A stretch of 64,000 bases of DNA from Aquiluna sp. KACHI24. Lineage in GTDB: Bacteria > Actinomycetota > Actinomycetes > Actinomycetales > Microbacteriaceae. Each line of letters begins with the position of its first letter. Within the stretch, counting starts at the first letter, position 1. The stretch spans positions 682,001 through 746,000 of the forward strand of contig NZ_AP026677.1 in assembly GCF_025997915.1 (NCBI RefSeq), given 5' to 3'. Below, piece by piece: positions 2,951-14,271 of the stretch. The notes under the pieces are model-generated. The model had not been told where the DNA came from, ran no database searches, and saw nothing but the letters and a program-made list of their open reading frames with translations. The translations under genes were made by a program, and so were the position numbers.

Positions 2951-3503
2951 TCGCCGTCGGCAAGGTGATGGGTAGCAGCTCACCTGGTGGTAAGGCGGTG
3001 TCCCCACGGTTGACCGCTACAGACCGGTATAGCGCGATTAGTTTGGAGTAGGTCTCGGGTTGATAGATCTCGGGACCGGTTAAGACCCCTCTAAGAAACC
3101 AACGCGGTCCATCTACGCCGATAAATCTGGATTCGCGCAAGAATCGCTTGCCGTTCTCAGTGACGGAGGTCTGAACTCGAAGTTCTGGGCCCAGCACTCC
3201 CGGGATAATCTCTGCGAGACCATTTTGTTCGGCGATGCCCTTAGCTATCGCATTCATGGTGAACTCCCACAGACCCTCGGATTTTGTAGCAGCAAAGGCT
3301 TGAATCTGAAGTCGGTGACCATCTTGCTCGAGCGATAGCGACACGATGCGCTTTGACTGATCGTCGACATCGGCCTTGATCGTGATGCCCGGCTGTGGCG
3401 AGATGCGAAGTGAACCGAAGTCGAGATACGGTGTCAGGATGCCGAGCTCGGAGACATCAAACGGCCCATTTTCTAATCGGTCAGCCGGTTCAAGCTTCGC
3501 CAT
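2943..3503 (-). CDS. DUF3710 domain protein
   Basis: A soluble protein of 186 residues. Seen: YLDFGSLRI near residue 27 and GPRWFLRGVLTGP near residues 130-142, both recalled as characteristic of DUF3710. There are no membrane segments and no recognisable catalytic motif. The start ATG at 3503 overlaps the dut stop by one base (TGATG), so the two are translationally coupled. Constant linkage to dut in actinobacteria suggests a housekeeping role, but none is known. Confidence 0.88.
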   Translation of the reverse strand: MAKLEPADRLENGPFDVSELGILTPYLDFGSLRISPQPGITIKADVDDQSKRIVSLSLEQDGHRLQIQAFAATKSEGLWEFTMNAIAKGIAEQNGLAEIIPGVLGPELRVQTSVTENGKRFLRESRFIGVDGPRWFLRGVLTGPEIYQPETYSKLIALYRSVAVNRGDTALPPGELLPITLPTANE

Positions 3504-3922
3504 CAGCTTCGCCCCGTCGATCCAAAGCCACTGTCACCGCGGAAACTTTCTGGTAGCTCCTGAACCGGGTGAAAGGTCGCTCTTTCGACTCTTTGAAACA
3601 CGAGCTGGGCGATTCGATCGCCTCGCGTAATTTGGAAGTCCTCGTCGGAGAGATTGATAAGCGTCACCATTAGCTCGCCGCGATAGCCCGCATCAACGGT
3701 TCCAGGGGTGTTCAGCACGGTAATTCCGTGTTTGGCAGCGAGGCCGGATCTTGGGTGCACCAATCCAACGTAGCCATCTGGCATAGCGATCTTCACGCCG
3801 GTCTTCACCAGTGCGCGCTTACCGGGCTCCAGGATCAAAGTCTCAGTAGAGCGCAGATCCGCTCCGGCGTCCCCTGGTTTTGCATAGCTGGGTTCAAAGC
3901 CCGCTTCGGCGATGATGAGCAC
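3503..3922 (-). CDS. dut: Deoxyuridine 5'-triphosphate nucleotidohydrolase (dUTPase)
   Basis: Hydrolyses dUTP to dUMP and pyrophosphate, keeping uracil out of DNA and feeding thymidylate synthesis. All five motifs of the trimeric dUTPase are present in order: PGDAGADL, HPRSGLAAKHGI, GTVDAGYRGEL, RGDRIAQLVFQ and the C-terminal glycine-rich GDSGFGSTGRS. With the GTG at 3922 the product is 139 residues. That start has a GGGGTGA ribosome site 8 bases upstream. A GTG at 3934 (143 residues) is the alternative, but it sits directly on the purine-rich site. The gene diverges from DUF3093 and shares a symmetric -10 element at 3945-3951. Confidence 0.93.
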   Translation of the reverse strand: MLIIAEAGFEPSYAKPGDAGADLRSTETLILEPGKRALVKTGVKIAMPDGYVGLVHPRSGLAAKHGITVLNTPGTVDAGYRGELMVTLINLSDEDFQITRGDRIAQLVFQRVERATFHPVQELPESFRGDSGFGSTGRS

Positions 3923-6665: not shown

Positions 6666-9014
6666 ATGACCCAGTCCAACGAACGCATTATTGACGTCGA
6701 TGTCGCCAAAGAAATGCGGGAATCATTTCTGGAGTACTCCTACTCGGTCATCTATTCCAGAGCCCTGCCAGATGCCCGCGATGGCCTGAAGCCCGTTCAA
6801 CGCCGCATCGTTTACCAGATGGGTGAAATGGGCCTGCGACCAGATCGCGGTCATGTCAAATCTGCCCGCGTCACCGGCGAGGTGATGGGAAAGCTTCATC
6901 CGCACGGCGACGGTGCAATCTATGATGCGCTGGTTCGTATGGCCCAGGATTTCAGTCTGCGTCTGCCACTTATTGATGGCCACGGTAATTTTGGAAGCCT
7001 AGATGACGGCCCGGCAGCTGCTCGTTACACCGAAGCCCGTCTGGCTCCAGCTTCACTTCTTCTGAATGAGTCCTTGGATGAGGATGTTGTCGACTTCGTA
7101 CCAAACTACGACGCGCAGTTAACCGAGCCGAGTGTGCTGCCAGCGGCATTTCCGAATCTCCTGGTCAACGGCGCATCGGGCATCGCTGTTGGCATGGCTA
7201 CCAACATGCCACCACACAATCTTCGTGAGGTAGTAGCAGCGCTGCAGTTGTTGATTGCGAACCCAGACGCAGAATTAGAGGAAATCCTCAAGGTGCTTCC
7301 TGGACCCGACCTGCCCTCTGGTGCGATTGCACTAGTTGGAGAAACTCTCACCGAGGCTTATGCCACTGGTCGCGGTGCATTTCGCATGCGGGCCAAAATC
7401 AGTATCGAGAACGTTGGTCCACGCCGCACCGGGCTCGTGGTAACCGAGCTCCCATATCAGGTTGGACCAGAGCGCGTTGTGGACCGAATTCGCGAAGCCG
7501 TAAACGCAAAGAAGCTTGAGGGGATTCATGACGTCGTAGACCTCACGGACCGTGAGAACGGACTGAAGCTTGTCATCGAGCTAAAGACTGGTTTTGACCC
7601 CTCCAGCGTTGTTGAGGCGCTCTATAAGTTCACGCCGCTGGAAGAGAATTTTGGCGTAAACAATGTGGCCTTGGTCGATGGCAGACCCCAGCAATTGAGC
7701 CTTAGAGAGCTATTGCAGGTTTACATCGGTCACCGACTTGAGGTTGTGAAGCGCAGGAGCATCAACCGCAAGGACCGCAAGAGCGCGAGGCTGCACCTTC
7801 TTGAGGGCTTGCAAATTGCAGTGCTCAATATTGACGAGGTGATTGAGGTGATTCGCACCTCCGACACGGTCGAGTCCGCGCGAAGCCGCCTGATGCAAAT
7901 TTTTGACCTCTCAACGCTTCAGGCAGACCACATCCTTGAGCTGCGGCTAAGAAGATTGACTCGATTCTCTGTGATCGAGTTAGAGACTGAAGCCGACGAG
8001 TTGCGCCGTGAAATCGAAGAACTTCTTAGGCTGTTGTCCTCGGAGCAGCTGATGCGCAATCTTGTCTCTAAAGAACTCGACAAGGTCGCTCAGGATTATG
8101 GTGACGAGCGCCGCACTCTGTTGATTGACGCCTCGGGAATCTCCGTGGTTTCGAGATCGAAGGTCGTGGTTCAAGAGCTCAGTGATGAACCCACCAACGT
8201 TTATATTTCCCCCACCGGGGCAGTATTCCGTTATTCAGGTGTGGTCGCCCATACCGAAGCGAGACTGCTGTTTGAGAGCACCACTCGCAGCGATGTCGCA
8301 TTCCTGACCTCAAACGCTGAGGCGGTGCGGGTTCATGTCGCGGATCTACCCAATTACAACCCAGGTGTGAGCGGTGCGATGCCAGATGCGACCGAGTTCT
8401 TAGGCTCCGCTAATCGCGTGGTAGCGGTAATGCCGTGGGGCTCTGAGGCAACATATGCCCTAGGCACGGCTCAGGGCACGGTTAAGCGCTTTGCGGGACC
8501 CTTGCCTGATAAGGACCAGGTCTCCGTGCTCGCACTCAAAGAGCTGGACGAAGTGGTAGGGCTGGTTGAAGCCGACGAGAGCACTGAATTGGTGTTTGTA
8601 ACCAGAGAGGCAAATGCCCTGGTATTCCCTGCAACATCTGTTCGACCGCAGGGACTTCCGGCATCTGGAATGGCCGGAATAAACGTCGAGGATTCCAGGG
8701 TAATTTTCTTTGGTCGAGCAGACTCGGATTCCTATATCGTAACTGCGGCGAACCTTTCTGCTGCGCTTGGCGACACCGATCCTGGTGCGGGAAAGATTAC
8801 TCCGCTTCGAGAGATTCCTCGCAAGGGAAGAGGAGCCATGGGAGTGAGAGTGCAGCGGTTCCTCAAGGGCGAGGATCAGCTTTACTTTGCAGCGGTTGTC
8901 CAGCACGGGCTGCTCTTTGACCTGGACGGCAATCCGCTTCCTGAACTTGATAAAAACTCCAAGCGAGACGCTTCTGGATCAGCTCTTGAACGGTATGTAG
9001 CTAGCGCCTTCTAG
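6666..9014 (+). CDS. parC: DNA topoisomerase IV subunit A
   Basis: 782 residues; the DNA-cleaving subunit of a type IIA topoisomerase that decatenates chromosomes with ParE. Seen: the N-terminal [15 protein letters not shown], the active-site RYTEARLAP with Tyr121, and [17 protein letters not shown]. The GyrA-box typical of gyrase is not apparent, and the sepH/parE/sigA neighbourhood is that of actinobacterial topoisomerase IV, so ParC is preferred to GyrA. The ATG at 6666 has GAGGA just upstream; an in-frame ATG at 6633 would add eleven unlike residues. The quinolone-contact position is Gly83 rather than Ser. Convergent with parE, sharing the four bases CTAG for both stops. Confidence 0.93.
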
Positions 9015-11065
9015 GCGTCGATTCGCTCTCGGTCGAAATCGTCGGCCGCATCAATTATGAAGTCCTTTCGAGGCGCGACATCCGAACCCATCAACAGCTC
9101 GAACATCTCCTCGGCAATTTGAGCATCTGCGGCAGTGATTCGTCTCAGGGTTCGGTTTTGTGGCTGCATGGTGGTCTCAGCTAGCTGATCAGCATCCATC
9201 TCCCCCAGGCCCTTATAGCGCTGAATCGGCTGCAGGTAGCTTTTACCCTGTTTATCAAGACGCTGCAGCAGGTCCGTTAGCTCCTGCTGCGAGTAGGTGT
9301 AAATCGGCTCTTTACTCCTGCCGTTCTGCACCATGACTCTGTGAAGCGGCGGAACGGCAGCGTACACCCGACCTGCCTCTACCAATGGCCTCATGTATCG
9401 GAAAAAGAGGGTGAGAAGCAGTGTTCTGATGTGAGCCCCGTCAACGTCGGCGTCTGACATCAGAATGATCTTCTCGTAACGGACCTGCTCAAGGTCAAAT
9501 GTGCGGCCAGAACCGCCACCAACCACCTGAATGATTGAGGCACACTCGGCATTCGAGAGCATGTCGGAGATCGATGCCTTTTGGACGTTGAGGATTTTGC
9601 CTCGAATGGGCAGTAACGCCTGGAATTTGGAGTCACGCGCTAGCTTGGCGGTGCCCAGCGCGCTATCACCCTCAACAATAAACAGCTCCGAGCCCTCAGT
9701 AGCGCTAGCTCTGCAGTCAACCAACTTGGTCGGTAGCGACGAGGACTCCAGTGCGTTCTTTCGTCGCTGAGTGTCCTTCAGGGTACGTGCTGAAATGCGG
9801 GCCTTCGCCTCATTGACGATTTTCTCGAGAATCTTTTCAGCCTCTTGCTTTGAACCCCTGATGTTGCCGGACAGAAAACTGTCGAGGTATCTCGATACGG
9901 CGTTGGCGACAATTTGCTTCACCGCAGGGGTGCCAAGGGTTTCCTTGGTTTGACCCTCAAACTGCGGTTCGGGAAGGCTAACGGTCACGACTGCCGTGAG
10001 GCCCGCCATGACATCCTCACGCTCGATTTTGAGGCCATTGGCCTTCAGTTTGCGTGAGTTGGTTTCGACCGCAGCACGAATGGACTTGAGCAGCCCCTGC
10101 TCAAATCCCGCTTGATGCGAACCGCCCTTCGGCGTCGAGATAATGTTCACGAATGATCTGAGTTCGGTTTCAAATCCAGTGCCCCAGCGAAGTGCAACCT
10201 CGACCTTGCACTCGCGCTCGATCTCTTTAGAAACCATCGAGCCGGAGTCGTCCAAAACCGGCACGGTCTCCTTGAAATTTGCAGACTCCGAGATTCGCTT
10301 GGTGGCAACAACAGGAGCATCTTTGCAAAGATGCTCGACGTATTCAGAGATCCCACCCTCAAATTCAAACTCAAGCTTGGTACCGGAGCGCCTGTCTTCA
10401 GCACTTAGCTTGAGCCCTGGAACCAAAAAGGCAGTTTGGCTGAGCCTGGCTTTTAGATCGTCAATTGAGAAGACCGCACTTTGATCGAAGATTTGCCTGT
10501 CTGGCCAGTAGCGAACCTTGGTTCCAGTGATTGTCTTTGCGACCTTGCCAAGTTTCCTAAGCTCCGAGTTATCTTCAAACGGCTTAAAGGGTGCATCAGG
10601 CTGGTCAGACGCGAAGGTGCCCGGTTCCCCCCTGCGAAAAGACATTCCCCAGGTTTGCCCATCACGGTTCACTTCAACGTCCAGGCGCAGGCTAAGTGCG
10701 TTCACTACCGATGCCCCAACACCATGGAGACCGCCGGAGGCGCCATATGATCCTCCACCGAACTTGCCGCCGGCGTGCAGCTTGGTAAAGACGACCTCGA
10801 CTCCGGTGAGTCCAGTTCTTGGTTCAATGTCTACGGGAATGCCTCGCCCAAAATCCTGAACCTCGAGGGAGCCGTCCTCATGGGCGATAACCCTGATTTC
10901 CTTGCCATATCCGGCAAGGGCCTCATCTACTGAGTTGTCGATGATTTCCCACAGACAGTGCATCAAACCGCGACCATCGGTAGAACCGATGTACATTCCG
11001 GGGCGCTTGCGAACGGCCTCAAGACCCTCAAGAACTGAAAGGTGACGGGCTGAGTAGTTTTCCAC
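9011..11065 (-). CDS. parE: DNA topoisomerase IV subunit B
   Basis: 684 residues; the ATPase subunit partnering ParC. In order: GHKL ATPase ([56 protein letters not shown]), transducer domain, and TOPRIM ([36 protein letters not shown]). It ends with the short C-terminal region [17 protein letters not shown] and has none of the insertions seen in some GyrB. The GTG start has no ribosome site but has TAGCGT exactly six bases upstream (11072-11077), so the mRNA is probably leaderless. The stop codon overlaps that of parC. The pair is therefore transcribed separately, unlike a parEC operon. Confidence 0.94.
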
Positions 11066-11175: not shown

Positions 11176-11367
11176 ATGGAAAACACCGCTGAGAAACTTC
11201 TTGCCACTGACCGCTGCGACGTCTGTGGAGCACAGGCCTACATTCGAGTCGAGCTGGAGATTGGCGAGCTGCTTTTCTGCGCCCACCATGGAAACGCCAA
11301 TAAGGAGAAGCTTCAGCCAATCTCCATTAACTGGCACGATCAGTCTGACGAACTCAGTCAGCGATAG
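11176..11367 (+). CDS. DUF7455 small zinc-finger-like protein
   Basis: 63 residues. A compact CDVCG near the start and a later CAHHG (about residues 13-37) look like a Cys2-Cys/His zinc site. The sequence (start MENTAEKLL, then CDVCGAQAYIRVELEIGELL) is recalled as the DUF7455 family, commonly found next to parE and sigA in actinobacteria. Function unknown. It diverges from parE. Its last 14 bases overlap the end of the convergent gatD-like gene. Confidence 0.85.
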   Translation: MENTAEKLLATDRCDVCGAQAYIRVELEIGELLFCAHHGNANKEKLQPISINWHDQSDELSQR

Positions 11368-11932
11368 AAGTCTTAATTATCTGCTCGAGGTAATTTTCGA
11401 GCCTTCCCGAGAAGCTTGAACTGAGTTCTGTTTCAACGCCGATGGCATCCAAAACTAGCTTGAGCAAGTCCGGCGACTTTGCAAGCACCGGCCCGTACAA
11501 GGCTGTTCCTATGAAGGCACCCTGAATAAACAGGTCAGAACCGTCTAAATCAGTATTGCGGTATCCAAATGCGCTGAGCGATCCGGATTTAGCCACGCGA
11601 AATTCACTTACCCTGGCGGCCCGAACAGGATTGGGAAGTCCGTCAAGGATGTCCATGTAAAACTCATAGCTCGAACCCACCAAGAGGGTTGCTTTCCCCT
11701 GATCTAGTCGCGACTGCAGGCCTGGAGCCAGCTCCAAAAGTTCAGCTGAGTATTCGCGCCTCACAGCATTGAACGAGTCACCGATCAGAACGAAGTCCGC
11801 ACTTAGGTCAAATTCGTGCAGAACCTCAAAATCAACCCCTCGCCACTGCAACTGCTTAGTCAATACAAGCAGATTGCCCTGGTCTGCATTTCTATTGAAT
11901 AGCTCGGGTCTATAGCTTGAAAGAGAGATCAT
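11354..11932 (-). CDS. gatD: GatD-like class I glutamine amidotransferase, catalytically degenerate
   Basis: 192 residues, overlapping the end of murT by four bases (ATGA), the usual murT-gatD arrangement. Canonical GatD supplies ammonia from glutamine so that MurT can amidate the D-Glu alpha-carboxyl of lipid II. Here the fold markers remain (LVLTKQLQWRG..., DFVLIGDS at 47-53, YEFYMDILDG at 89-98, GTALYGPVLAKSPDLL at 142-157). The catalytic residues are gone: the expected V-C-G-G-Y-Q elbow reads V-G-S-S-Y-E (85-90), and the L-H-G-P histidine is Tyr146. The protein contains no cysteine. It therefore cannot be a Cys-dependent glutaminase. The reading frame is intact and evenly coding, so it is not an obvious pseudogene; a structural or altered role is inferred. 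Confidence 0.82.
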   Translation of the reverse strand: MISLSSYRPELFNRNADQGNLLVLTKQLQWRGVDFEVLHEFDLSADFVLIGDSFNAVRREYSAELLELAPGLQSRLDQGKATLLVGSSYEFYMDILDGLPNPVRAARVSEFRVAKSGSLSAFGYRNTDLDGSDLFIQGAFIGTALYGPVLAKSPDLLKLVLDAIGVETELSSSFSGRLENYLEQIIKTSIAD

Positions 11933-13140
11933 TTCGCCAGCCCTAAATGTCTTCGAGTGCGGCGCATCGCATCAGCTGAGAACATGATTGTGGGCGAGTC
12001 TCCAGGAAGTTCTAGAAAGTAGTCAGCGGCATCCTGAGGCGACTGAATCACCCTTCCGATTTCGACTCCGCTATAGGTGAGGGCCAAGGCGAGATCGTAA
12101 GCATTTAGCCCACCCACCACATCAACTCTGGTCAGTTTCGAGAAATCGACCGCCCACAACCAGCTAGGATCGTGAATGTCAGACCCGGCCATGAGCATCA
12201 ACGGAGTCTCTTGGCCGGAAATGTTCTCCAGGTTGAGGTTAAAGCTGACGGAGTTCTGCACCAACATAAGCCGAACCTCTCGGCCGGCAATCTCTGTTCG
12301 CTCGTCACGAGCAAACACGACAGGCATGTTTTCGAGCGTGGTTTCAACTAACTCCTGATCGATAACAACGGTTTGCTCAACGGCTGCGATCGCTGCAGCG
12401 ATGTTCAAAGCCTGGTGCGTGCCCGCGCTTGGAAGCTTTACGAAATAGCGCGCCCGCTTGGTTGCTATCTCAGCGCTCGTGCCTTCAACGCGAACAACCT
12501 CGGCCGAAATAGGAAGCGGGTCAGGCTGGGAAAAATTGATTGCATATTCAGGCCTCTCACCCTCAAAGGTTCTTCCCAAGCCAAACGCCAGGGAGTTCAC
12601 CTCCTGAGCAAACTCCAGAAGGTTCGGGTCATCACCGTTGAGGATTACCAGCTCACTGGCCGCTGCAATACGTCTTAGCTTGTCCTGAACAAACTCTGGG
12701 TCCACGAAGCGATCCAGCTGATCAGATAGCACATTTGTCAGTACCGAAGTCCTTGGCCTTAGTTCAGAAATCAGGGCTGCTCCGTGCCCCTCATCGAGCT
12801 CCAGGACGACGATGTCGGCGTCAATGCGTCCTCTTAGATCTCCAAATTGCAATACCGCTGCGTATAGACCCTGACGAATATTCGCCGTAGATGGATTGGT
12901 GAATACCTTTAGCCCTGCGGCCCTAAGCAGCTCAACGATCACCTTGGTGGTGGTGCTTTTTCCGGCTGTCCCAGAAACGGCGATTAGCCCGTGAGGAGCA
13001 GATGCAATTGCCCTTGAGAGTAACCTCGGTTGGATTTTGAATGCGATTGTGCCGGGGAGGGCTGACCCTCCACCCCTACGTACGAGTCGGAGAAGAAACC
13101 GGGCGACTTTGCCCAACAGCATTGCGGCAAAGGTGCGCAA
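11929..13140 (-). CDS. murT: MurT-like Mur-ligase protein lacking the zinc ribbon
   Basis: 403 residues. Mur ligase central domain with ATP loop GTAGKSTTTK (57-66), TNPSTANIRQGLY (81-93), the Mg-binding LELDEGHGA (113-121) and NVLSDQLDRF (136-145). The C-terminal MurT domain (DUF1727) is recognisable by FARDERTEI and PSWLWAVDF (325-333). Canonical MurT activates the D-Glu alpha-carboxyl of lipid II and amidates it with ammonia from GatD. Oddities: no cysteine anywhere, so the usual four-Cys ribbon is absent; the usual KNP-type motif reads VQNSVSF (294-300); WLWD is WLWA. The TTG start at 13140 directly abuts the rpoD stop; ATG 13122 is an alternative. Confidence 0.86.
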   Translation of the reverse strand: MRTFAAMLLGKVARFLLRLVRRGGGSALPGTIAFKIQPRLLSRAIASAPHGLIAVSGTAGKSTTTKVIVELLRAAGLKVFTNPSTANIRQGLYAAVLQFGDLRGRIDADIVVLELDEGHGAALISELRPRTSVLTNVLSDQLDRFVDPEFVQDKLRRIAAASELVILNGDDPNLLEFAQEVNSLAFGLGRTFEGERPEYAINFSQPDPLPISAEVVRVEGTSAEIATKRARYFVKLPSAGTHQALNIAAAIAAVEQTVVIDQELVETTLENMPVVFARDERTEIAGREVRLMLVQNSVSFNLNLENISGQETPLMLMAGSDIHDPSWLWAVDFSKLTRVDVVGGLNAYDLALALTYSGVEIGRVIQSPQDAADYFLELPGDSPTIMFSADAMRRTRRHLGLAK

Positions 13141-14271
13141 TTAGCTGTCCAGGTAGTCCCGAAGCAACTGCGAACGAGAGGGGTGACGAAGCTTAGACAT
13201 GGTCTTGGACTCGATCTGTCTAATGCGCTCTCGTGTGACACCGAACTTCTCGCCAATTTGGTCGAGAGTCATTTGCACACCATCTCCCAAACCGAAGCGG
13301 GAGCGAATGACGCCTGCCTCCCTTGGGTGAAGACTGTCTAATACGCGCTCCAGCTCCTGCTGCAGCATGGTGAAACCAACTGCGTCTGCAGGGACGACCG
13401 CCTCGGTGTCCTCAATCAAATCTCCGAATTCGCTGTCGCCATCTTCACCCAGAGGGGTGGAGAGCGAGATTGGCTCACGGCCGTATTTCTGGACCTCAAC
13501 AACCTTTTCTGGGGTCATGTCCAGTTCAGCTGCTAGCTCCTCTGGAGTGGGCTCTCGACCAAGGTCTTGCAGGAGCTGACGCTGAACACGGGCAAGCTTG
13601 TTGATGACCTCAACCATGTGAACTGGGATACGGATAGTTCTAGCTTGGTCGGCCATCGCACGAGTGATTGCCTGACGGATCCACCAGGTGGCATAAGTCG
13701 AGAACTTATACCCCTTGGTGTAGTCAAACTTCTCAACGGCTCTGATTAGACCGAGGTTTCCCTCTTGAATCAGGTCAAGGAATTGCATGCCTCTACCGGT
13801 GTAGCGCTTTGCAAGCGATACAACTAGACGAAGGTTCGCCTCTAGGAGGTGAGACTTTGCACGCTGACCATCTTTCACAACCCAGGTGAGATCGCGTCGC
13901 TCTTGAGGTGAGAGGTTTTTGGCAAGCGAAAGCTTCTCCTCAGCGAACAATCCGGCCTCAATGCGCTTTGCTAGCTCAACCTCGAGCTCCGCATTTAGAA
14001 GCGCGACCTTACCGATCTGCTTGAGGTAATCCTTGACCGGGTCTGCTGTAGCGCCGGAGATAGTGAGGTTCTGAACCGGGATGTCGTCATCGTCGTTGTT
14101 CAGAACTAGCACATCGGCGGGAAGCTGAATGGATTCGGTGGCTAGCTCTTCTTTGGCCTCGTCCTCAGCGGTTAGGTCAACGGCCTCTTGTGCCTCGGCG
14201 ACGATGTCCTCGACAGGCTCTAATTCAACTTCTTCTTCATCTTCTTCATCGCCATCGGGCAGATCAGCCAC
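13141..14271 (-). CDS. rpoD: Principal RNA polymerase sigma factor (SigA/RpoD)
   Basis: Primary sigma-70 of at least 376 residues. Seen: an acidic N-terminus; region 1.2 ([19 protein letters not shown]); region 2 ([54 protein letters not shown]); region 3 ([13 protein letters not shown]); and region 4 with helix-turn-helix ([20 protein letters not shown]) ending LRDYLDS. The coordinates use the GTG at 14271, which has a poor ribosome site. The frame stays open upstream to an ATC at 14331 and encodes about 20 Lys/Ala-rich residues typical of actinobacterial SigA N-termini, with GAGG six bases before that ATC, so the true start may be there. murT follows with no gap. Confidence 0.95.

Follow-up and report, generated by a model that had tools for sequence, protein, structure and literature searches.

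A Cys-less GatD and its MurT partner in the sigA-parE interval of Microbacteriaceae as a candidate ligase for B-type cell wall bridges

Introduction

What is a glutaminase subunit retained for when it has lost the residues that make it a glutaminase? This question is raised by a 64,000-nucleotide stretch of the Aquiluna sp. KACHI24 genome (contig NZ_AP026677.1, positions 682,001 to 746,000), hereafter referred to as the window, in which a gatD homologue follows a gene for a MurT-like ligase. Characterised MurT acts on the alpha-carboxyl of D-Glu (PMC6085368), and replacement of the GatD nucleophile in S. aureus, by C94S and earlier by C94G, is reported to abolish activity (PMC6113224). It is furthermore reported that S. 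aureus MurT uses ammonia at pH 8.5 while GatD is still required (PMC6085368), and as GatD is needed even when ammonia is supplied, a GatD without catalytic activity can nevertheless be indispensable to its MurT.

Members of the Microbacteriaceae are described as possessing B-type walls (PMC3655929), and the one-residue D-Dab bridge of Clavibacter michiganensis is reported to be located on the D-Glu alpha-carboxyl. In the accessible parts of the open-licence literature no enzyme is named for the B-type bridge bond, and no report that addresses MurT and GatD of Microbacteriaceae was found in that literature. The initial annotation of the window had proposed that GatD is a partner that does not produce ammonia, kept for another reaction, and that the pair may attach the bridging amino acid itself.

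Results

The gatD homologue (11354..11932, minus strand) encodes 192 residues, and its ATG start shares 4 nt with the stop of the murT homologue, confirming the intact, overlapping frame that had been annotated. The substitutions described there were likewise recovered by alignment: the former nucleophile elbow, residues 85-90 VGSSYE (11663..11680, minus strand), places Gly86 in the Cys column, while Tyr146 (11495..11497, minus strand), within GTALYGPVL, occupies the column of the catalytic His, and the complete 192-residue translation contains 0 Cys. A Pfam search with this protein returned no family at E<=1, and its NCBIfam GatD match is weak (25.9 bits against an equivalog cut-off of 450). 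Structure comparison of its AlphaFold model (pLDDT 87.1) with solved GatD chains gave Z scores of 15.5-17.3 and rmsd values of 2.8-3.1 over 181-190 residues, followed by HisH as the next-best match (Z 11.2), and the class I glutaminase fold is present. Judged by this model, the protein is a genuine GatD homologue. It is very probably not a glutaminase.

The murT homologue (11929..13140, minus strand) encodes a Mur-ligase-like partner of 403 residues with the Pfam domains MurT_C and Mur_ligase_M, which contains no Cys and no CxxC motif and thus no zinc ribbon, and which scores 116.4 bits against an NCBIfam equivalog cut-off of 800. Its AlphaFold model (pLDDT 88.6) matches MurT chains at Z 26.5-32.1, and also other Mur ligases, folylpolyglutamate synthases and cyanophycin synthetase at Z about 25-29. 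The phosphate-binding loop, residues 57-65 GTAGKSTTT (12946..12972, minus strand), is intact, and alignment shows that Asp324 (12169..12171, minus strand), the counterpart of S. aureus MurT Asp349, is retained; the D349N substitution is reported to reduce activity severely (PMC6113224). As read from the alignment, the ATP-binding loop and the Mg and catalytic ligase residues are retained, i.e., those conserved in Cys-intact pairs: the P-loop (K61), E114, D116, E117, N136, R144, N168, D171, R278, E280, N296, D324 and S326. Absence of the zinc ribbon was considered as a novelty and rejected, as the ribbon is likewise missing from many Cys-intact pairs of the order.

The genome that contains the window (1,459,348 bp, 1 contig) possesses one MurT_C match, and the three GATase_3 matches found elsewhere in it were read from their translations as PdxT, PurQ and HisH. 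A second canonical murT-gatD pair, which the initial annotation had put forward as counter-evidence, was searched for and not found among the MurT_C and GATase_3 profile matches of the whole genome.

The distribution of the Cys loss was determined in 249 Microbacteriaceae genomes, 171 of which returned a MurT_C match, while a class C MurT profile (E<=1e-15; see below for classes) added 31 of the remaining 78, so that MurT is present in 202 of the 249 genomes and absent from 47. From the 171 genomes, 110 loci were taken, five genomes providing two each, and genomes beyond these count only as MurT-bearing. Including that of the window, 111 family GatDs were read: Cys and His are kept in 28, and Cys is absent from 83, of which 33, all of class C, keep the His. 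Among other families of the order, for which 50 of 92 MurT matches were read as loci and one GatD (L152) was lost, Cys and His are intact in 49 of 49 readable GatDs. The same applies to 21 of 21 GatDs in a class-wide draw of 122 non-family genomes with a match, of which 22 were read, one GatD (L283) being lost and 3 genomes having already been counted. Combined, 0 of 67 distinct genomes outside the family carry a Cys-less GatD. Among named relatives, limited to the best 80 of 371, Cys is absent at the elbow in all 65 GatDs read, with the remaining loci comprising 14 failures of the MurT pattern and 1 without a GatD found. The loss seen in the window, shared by 83 of 111 family sequences and 65 of 65 named ones, is not due to chance or a sequencing artefact. 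The suggested correlation between Cys loss and B-type walls held between families, yet inside the family Cys and His are kept in the 28 GatDs mentioned. Erysipelothrix and Eubacterium represent B-type lineages outside the Microbacteriaceae.

Four classes of family loci were distinguished: class A, combining a MurT without zinc ribbon and a Cys-intact GatD (23 loci); class A', with a zinc-ribbon MurT and a Cys-intact GatD (5 loci); class B, with a zinc-ribbon MurT and a GatD resembling FTHNALEVLG..GTSLIGP (15 loci); and class C, with a MurT lacking the ribbon and a GatD resembling AVGxGxELL..GTHLHGP in many variants (66 loci, including the window). These classes were assigned by sequence features, with trees sampling 85 and 57 MurTs, and L110 was placed in class B by tree. 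Classes B and C account for 81 of the 83 Cys-less family GatDs, and the two odd ones lie outside the sigA-parE interval described below. In each of the two trees the class C rows, that of the window included, group as a single clade (SH-aLRT 99). This clade is located beside class A and its kin from other families in the larger tree, where class B forms a separate clade; class B is a single clade in the tree of 57 as well. A single origin of classes B and C was rejected as one clade (p-AU 0.0076), a result accompanied by a long-branch warning from the tool.

Named class C loci, again among the best 80 of 371, were found in Herbiconiux, Subtercola, Clavibacter michiganensis, Leifsonia, Pseudoclavibacter, Frondihabitans and Agreia, and furthermore in Curtobacterium, Frigoribacterium, Mycetocola, Cryobacterium, Rathayibacter iranicus, Agromyces, Plantibacter, Microcella, Rhodoluna, some Microbacterium and others. 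A few record titles in this set refer to other groups or to no group. Three unusual records were encountered. Genus g53 (G053) carries an odd off-slot MurT/GatD on a very long branch, with a GatD devoid of Cys and His (L174:8686-9402 and L055); a 1.4 Mb genome (G005) harbours an off-slot, very diverged Cys-less MurT/GatD (L057; FNNALDILG, EALGNVF); and a record titled Planococcus sp. APC 4015 (L219) contains a class C pair that is 48% identical to the query and lies among Microbacteriaceae records, and is probably mislabelled or contaminated.

Class C MurTs are distinguished by a KNPASL in place of the KNPAGF segment, and by the lack of three residues before DxSW, corresponding to the DNAAD region, of which only the last Asp is left. 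In S. aureus, the DNAAD region has been linked to the stem peptide, while a Pro-framed stretch following the catalytic His of GatD contacts MurT (both PMC6113224). Of ten MurT columns specific to class C, six are matched by the window protein (S62, Q90, V151, V215, S299 and the gap before DxSW), whereas the remaining four differ (T58, Q243, N246 and N346). One of these concerns the adenine-pocket Asn (S. aureus N267 column), which is replaced by Asp in 91% of class C MurTs and kept as Asn246 in the window; the nucleotide preference of the class C proteins with this replacement may differ, GTP in place of ATP having been considered.

The pair of the window is located between sigA (13141..14271, minus strand), directly upstream of murT, and parE (9011..11065, minus strand), both named by sequence reading. 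This position proved to be characteristic of the Cys-less classes: class C adjoins sigA in 64 of 65 loci, 34 of which also reach parE, and class B does so in 15 of 15. A sigA-adjacent MurT was seen in 0 of 28 class A/A' loci and 0 of 49 loci of other families, many with shorter flanks, and no Cys-intact GatD was seen in the sigA-parE slot (0/28).

The slot region of genomes without MurT was read in 13 loci (L295, L296, L313-L323). Ten of these contain a gene for a CofE-like ligase (PF01996; the four proteins tested score 29.6-47.9 bits, above the cut-off of 25), nine of the ten also an ATP-grasp ligase (PF14397), and five (L295, L296, L313, L322, L323) a racemase pair. The CofE-like gene is located behind sigA in all nine genomes where this is readable, in one case (L314:3445-5499, genome G020) with a gene for a diaminobutyrate transaminase (Dat), scoring over the NCBIfam cut-off, between the two. 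The other three slots (L315, L318, L320) lack CofE-like, ATP-grasp, racemase-pair and Dat genes, as do the three slots read in class-A-only genomes (L324, L325, L327; L326 had no usable gene calls), in which no ligase, racemase pair or Dat was found. The sigA-parE interval of L318, a slot without ligase, contains a gene for a small DUF7455 protein (3477-3740). The ATP-grasp family also occurs in 7 of 15 class B loci; it was seen in 0 of 65 class C loci within about 4 kb, and the 80 named class C loci (best 80 of 371), as far as they reach, showed neither this family nor a CofE-like gene.

When the CofE-like profile was run against the 249 family genomes, 37 strong matches (E<=5e-109) were obtained, all among the 47 genomes lacking MurT and none among the 202 possessing it (Fisher p 2.6e-35, kinship ignored), a count that leaves out three weak matches (G053, G123, G147; E 1e-36 to 2e-45), all in MurT genomes. 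The weak match of G053 lies beside its odd off-slot MurT. Eleven of the 18 genera with a CofE-like gene (g7, g9, g13, g53, g57, g58, g74, g76, g79, g84 and g85) also hold MurT genomes, and the swap between the two has therefore probably occurred repeatedly. Ten of the 249 genomes, some incomplete, contain neither ligase. In Microbacterium (genus g85), class C is present in 21 of 119 genomes, and 98 lack MurT at E<=1e-20. The mutual exclusion shows that MurT and the CofE-like ligase share a role, and does not specify the carboxyl and the amine that are joined. The slot gene is a diverged homologue of CofE, the F420-0:glutamate ligase, which belongs to a family different from that of MurT; the three slot proteins tested remain below the cofE equivalog cut-off (25.6-31.4 against 180.65 bits). 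On gene content, the sigA-parE slot looks like a site for exchangeable cassettes.

Two adjacent genes for relatives of alanine racemase are located behind gatD in 31 of 80 named class C loci (best 80 of 371; e.g., L167:3780-5646, as well as L191, L193, L221 and others), and in 24-25 of 65 class C loci of the 249-genome set. The position of the PLP lysine is Lys in 17 of 17 aligned first proteins (Alr1) and Arg in 17 of 17 second proteins (Alr2). In the three pairs analysed with Pfam, the N-terminal domain is complete in Alr1, where the C-terminal one is at best represented by its later part, and Alr2 combines a complete C-terminal domain with a barrel fragment; the Alr1 of L193 passes the NCBIfam alr equivalog cut-off (188.6 against 168). 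Together the two proteins carry both Pfam domains of Alr, from which they differ in that the catalytic parts are divided, with the PLP lysine in Alr1 and the start of the C-terminal domain, which we take to carry the second catalytic residue, Tyr, only in Alr2. Based on this domain division, Alr1 and Alr2 could form one active site between two proteins, i.e., a split racemase.

The racemase pair was rejected as a constant partner, since no pair was seen in 49 of the 80 named loci, some of which are short, and since the window genome and that of Rhodoluna lacicola each possess only one Alr gene, without split pair and without a Dat over the cut-off. Dat (TIGR00709) was similarly rejected as a class C marker: it is over the cut-off in 6 of 18 genomes, only two of them class C. 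The other four lack MurT or have class A only, and Dab-type walls may therefore exist without class C.

Published wall compositions refer to species or genera, not always to the sequenced strain, and are on record for few sequenced taxa. R. lacicola, whose murT-gatD pair (G010) is of class C, is reported to have a B2beta wall with Dab and a D-Ala-D-Dab peptide (PMC4156110). Among genera with class C loci, a B2gamma wall with D- and L-Dab has been described for Herbiconiux (PMC10011130), B2gamma for Subtercola, L-Dab with D-Orn for Agreia and B2beta with D-Orn for Frondihabitans (PMC5945732), while in Microbacterium D-Orn is common, and L-Lys or Dab also occur (PMC10757982). B2 walls containing D-diamino acids are thus on record for several class C taxa, R. 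lacicola among them. B1 walls are reported for some Microbacteriaceae genera, and the slots read here come from other genera. A. minutum (G059) possesses only a Cys-intact class A' pair, and no published wall type was found for this species.

Both genes are under purifying selection, with dN/dS values, for the within-genus pairs printed, of 0.06-0.34 for the Cys-less GatD and 0.02-0.26 for its MurT, and the pair is kept in genomes of 0.93-1.46 Mb. Mean column identity is 36% for GatD and 54% for MurT. A pseudogene reading was rejected on dN/dS and conservation. In three family genomes (G152, G048, G101; L180-L182) the murT match contains an in-frame TGA, which may reflect local loss of the pair or an assembly error. 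The proposal that GatD has been kept as a non-ammonia-producing partner for another reaction is well supported by these data, given the inactivity of the S. aureus C94S and C94G proteins, the existence of two Cys-less classes and the persistence of purifying selection.

Discussion

The reading we favour, with a probability of roughly 0.55, is that the pair ligates a bridge amino acid to the D-Glu alpha-carboxyl, with GatD as a non-glutaminase partner. We infer substrate, product and the role of GatD as follows. The murT-gatD pair would encode a wall enzyme of the Microbacteriaceae that forms an amide bond at the expense of ATP. Its MurT would convert the D-Glu alpha-carboxyl of a stem-peptide precursor into an acyl phosphate, as has been proposed for MurT. 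This would then be attacked not by ammonia but by the bridge amino acid through its amino group, most likely a D-diamino acid (D-Dab, D-Orn or D-Lys), so that the initial bond of a B2-type interpeptide bridge is formed. GatD, unable to hydrolyse glutamine, would complete the C-terminal domain of MurT and may let in or orient the incoming amino acid. Within the sigA-parE cassette, this step would be performed interchangeably by class C or class B MurT/GatD, or by a CofE-like ligase.

The pair resembles the MurT/GatD lipid II isoglutaminyl synthase of S. aureus, S. pneumoniae and mycobacteria in its two-gene operon, in both folds, and in the ATP-site residues and Asp349 equivalent of MurT. It differs from that enzyme in lacking the nucleophile Cys and the His of GatD, in scoring far below the equivalog cut-offs, in its locus and, in class C, in the replaced DNAAD region; absence of the zinc ribbon is a further difference, although not a diagnostic one, as the ribbon is also absent from the Cys-intact class A. 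MurC-F and folylpolyglutamate synthases share the fold of the MurT model, and the proposed chemistry, acyl phosphate plus amino acid, is alike, whereas the MurT described here possesses MurT_C and a conserved small partner and scores below their NCBIfam cut-offs. An amino-acid ligase fits better than an amidase because the ligase site of MurT is kept, GatD cannot produce ammonia by the known route, other amide ligases can take the place of the pair in the slot, and D-amino-acid genes are grouped at this locus. That the Cys-less pair sits where relatives carry different bond-forming enzymes suggests that all slot ligases attach a cross-link amino acid.

The proposal of the initial annotation that the pair attaches the bridging amino acid thus gained indirect support from the CofE-like and ATP-grasp ligases, the racemase pairs and the single Dat in the slots of relatives. 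A simple claim that the pair is the B-type ligase of the family is contradicted by the 37 of 249 genomes with a CofE-like gene instead, the 10 with neither and the 98 of 119 Microbacterium genomes without MurT. The absence of MurT from most sampled Microbacterium, where D-Orn walls are common, counts against the bridge-ligase reading, which also leaves unexplained the ten genomes with neither ligase, the slots of class-A-only genomes in which no ligase was found and the lack of a racemase pair in the window.

An alternative that we consider unlikely is that the pair ligates an amino acid elsewhere, i.e., at position 3, as the second bridge residue, or on another surface polymer. Class B and CofE-like slots can hold two ligase kinds, and at least two ligations may therefore belong to the locus. 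Class C loci, however, show one ligase, ATP-grasp genes being absent from them both within about 4 kb and among the named loci; the wall of C. michiganensis, a class C species, is reported to have a bridge of a single residue, and characterised MurT acts on the D-Glu alpha-carboxyl (PMC6085368).

It is also improbable that the pair still amidates, with MurT using free ammonia, GatD being structural only, and D-Glu or the carboxyl of a bridge amino acid as the target. The ammonia-dependent activity of S. aureus MurT in the presence of GatD (PMC6085368) and the retention of the ATP-site residues and Asp349 equivalent are in keeping with such an activity. Yet in B-type walls the bridge is attached to the D-Glu alpha-carboxyl, as reported for C. 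michiganensis, the DNAAD region is missing from class C except for its last Asp, and the CofE-like plus ATP-grasp genes that replace the pair, accompanied by racemase genes and in one case by Dat, are more in keeping with amino acid ligation than with amidation. It is very improbable that GatD, possibly together with MurT, is a remnant that is decaying or serves regulation only: the lower conservation of GatD, its short length of 192 residues in the window and the TGA codons in three genomes are outweighed by the dN/dS values, the retention of the pair in small genomes and in its slot, and the intact ligase residues of MurT.

A broader form of the bridge-ligase reading, which is tentative and to which we would give somewhat less than even odds, is that sigA-parE is a switchable locus for the B-type bridge, at which three ligase types alternate, an ATP-grasp ligase is added for a second bridge residue, a racemase is built from two proteins, of which one supplies the PLP lysine and its partner the tyrosine, and GatD has on at least two occasions become a subunit that admits the amino acid. 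The interpeptide bridges of Microbacterium are generally described as beginning with glycine; a bridge of two residues made by two ligases would agree with this, and the glycine would account for the absence of MurT from most Microbacterium genomes sampled.

If the bridge-ligase reading is correct, a question that is directly testable in R. lacicola, for which genome editing has been reported (PMC11577799), candidate ligases would be named for most Microbacteriaceae walls, including those of plant-associated species and probably T. whipplei. It would furthermore mean that a glutaminase subunit has been reused after losing its chemistry, and that the presence of MurT/GatD in a genome does not imply amidated D-Glu in the corresponding wall.
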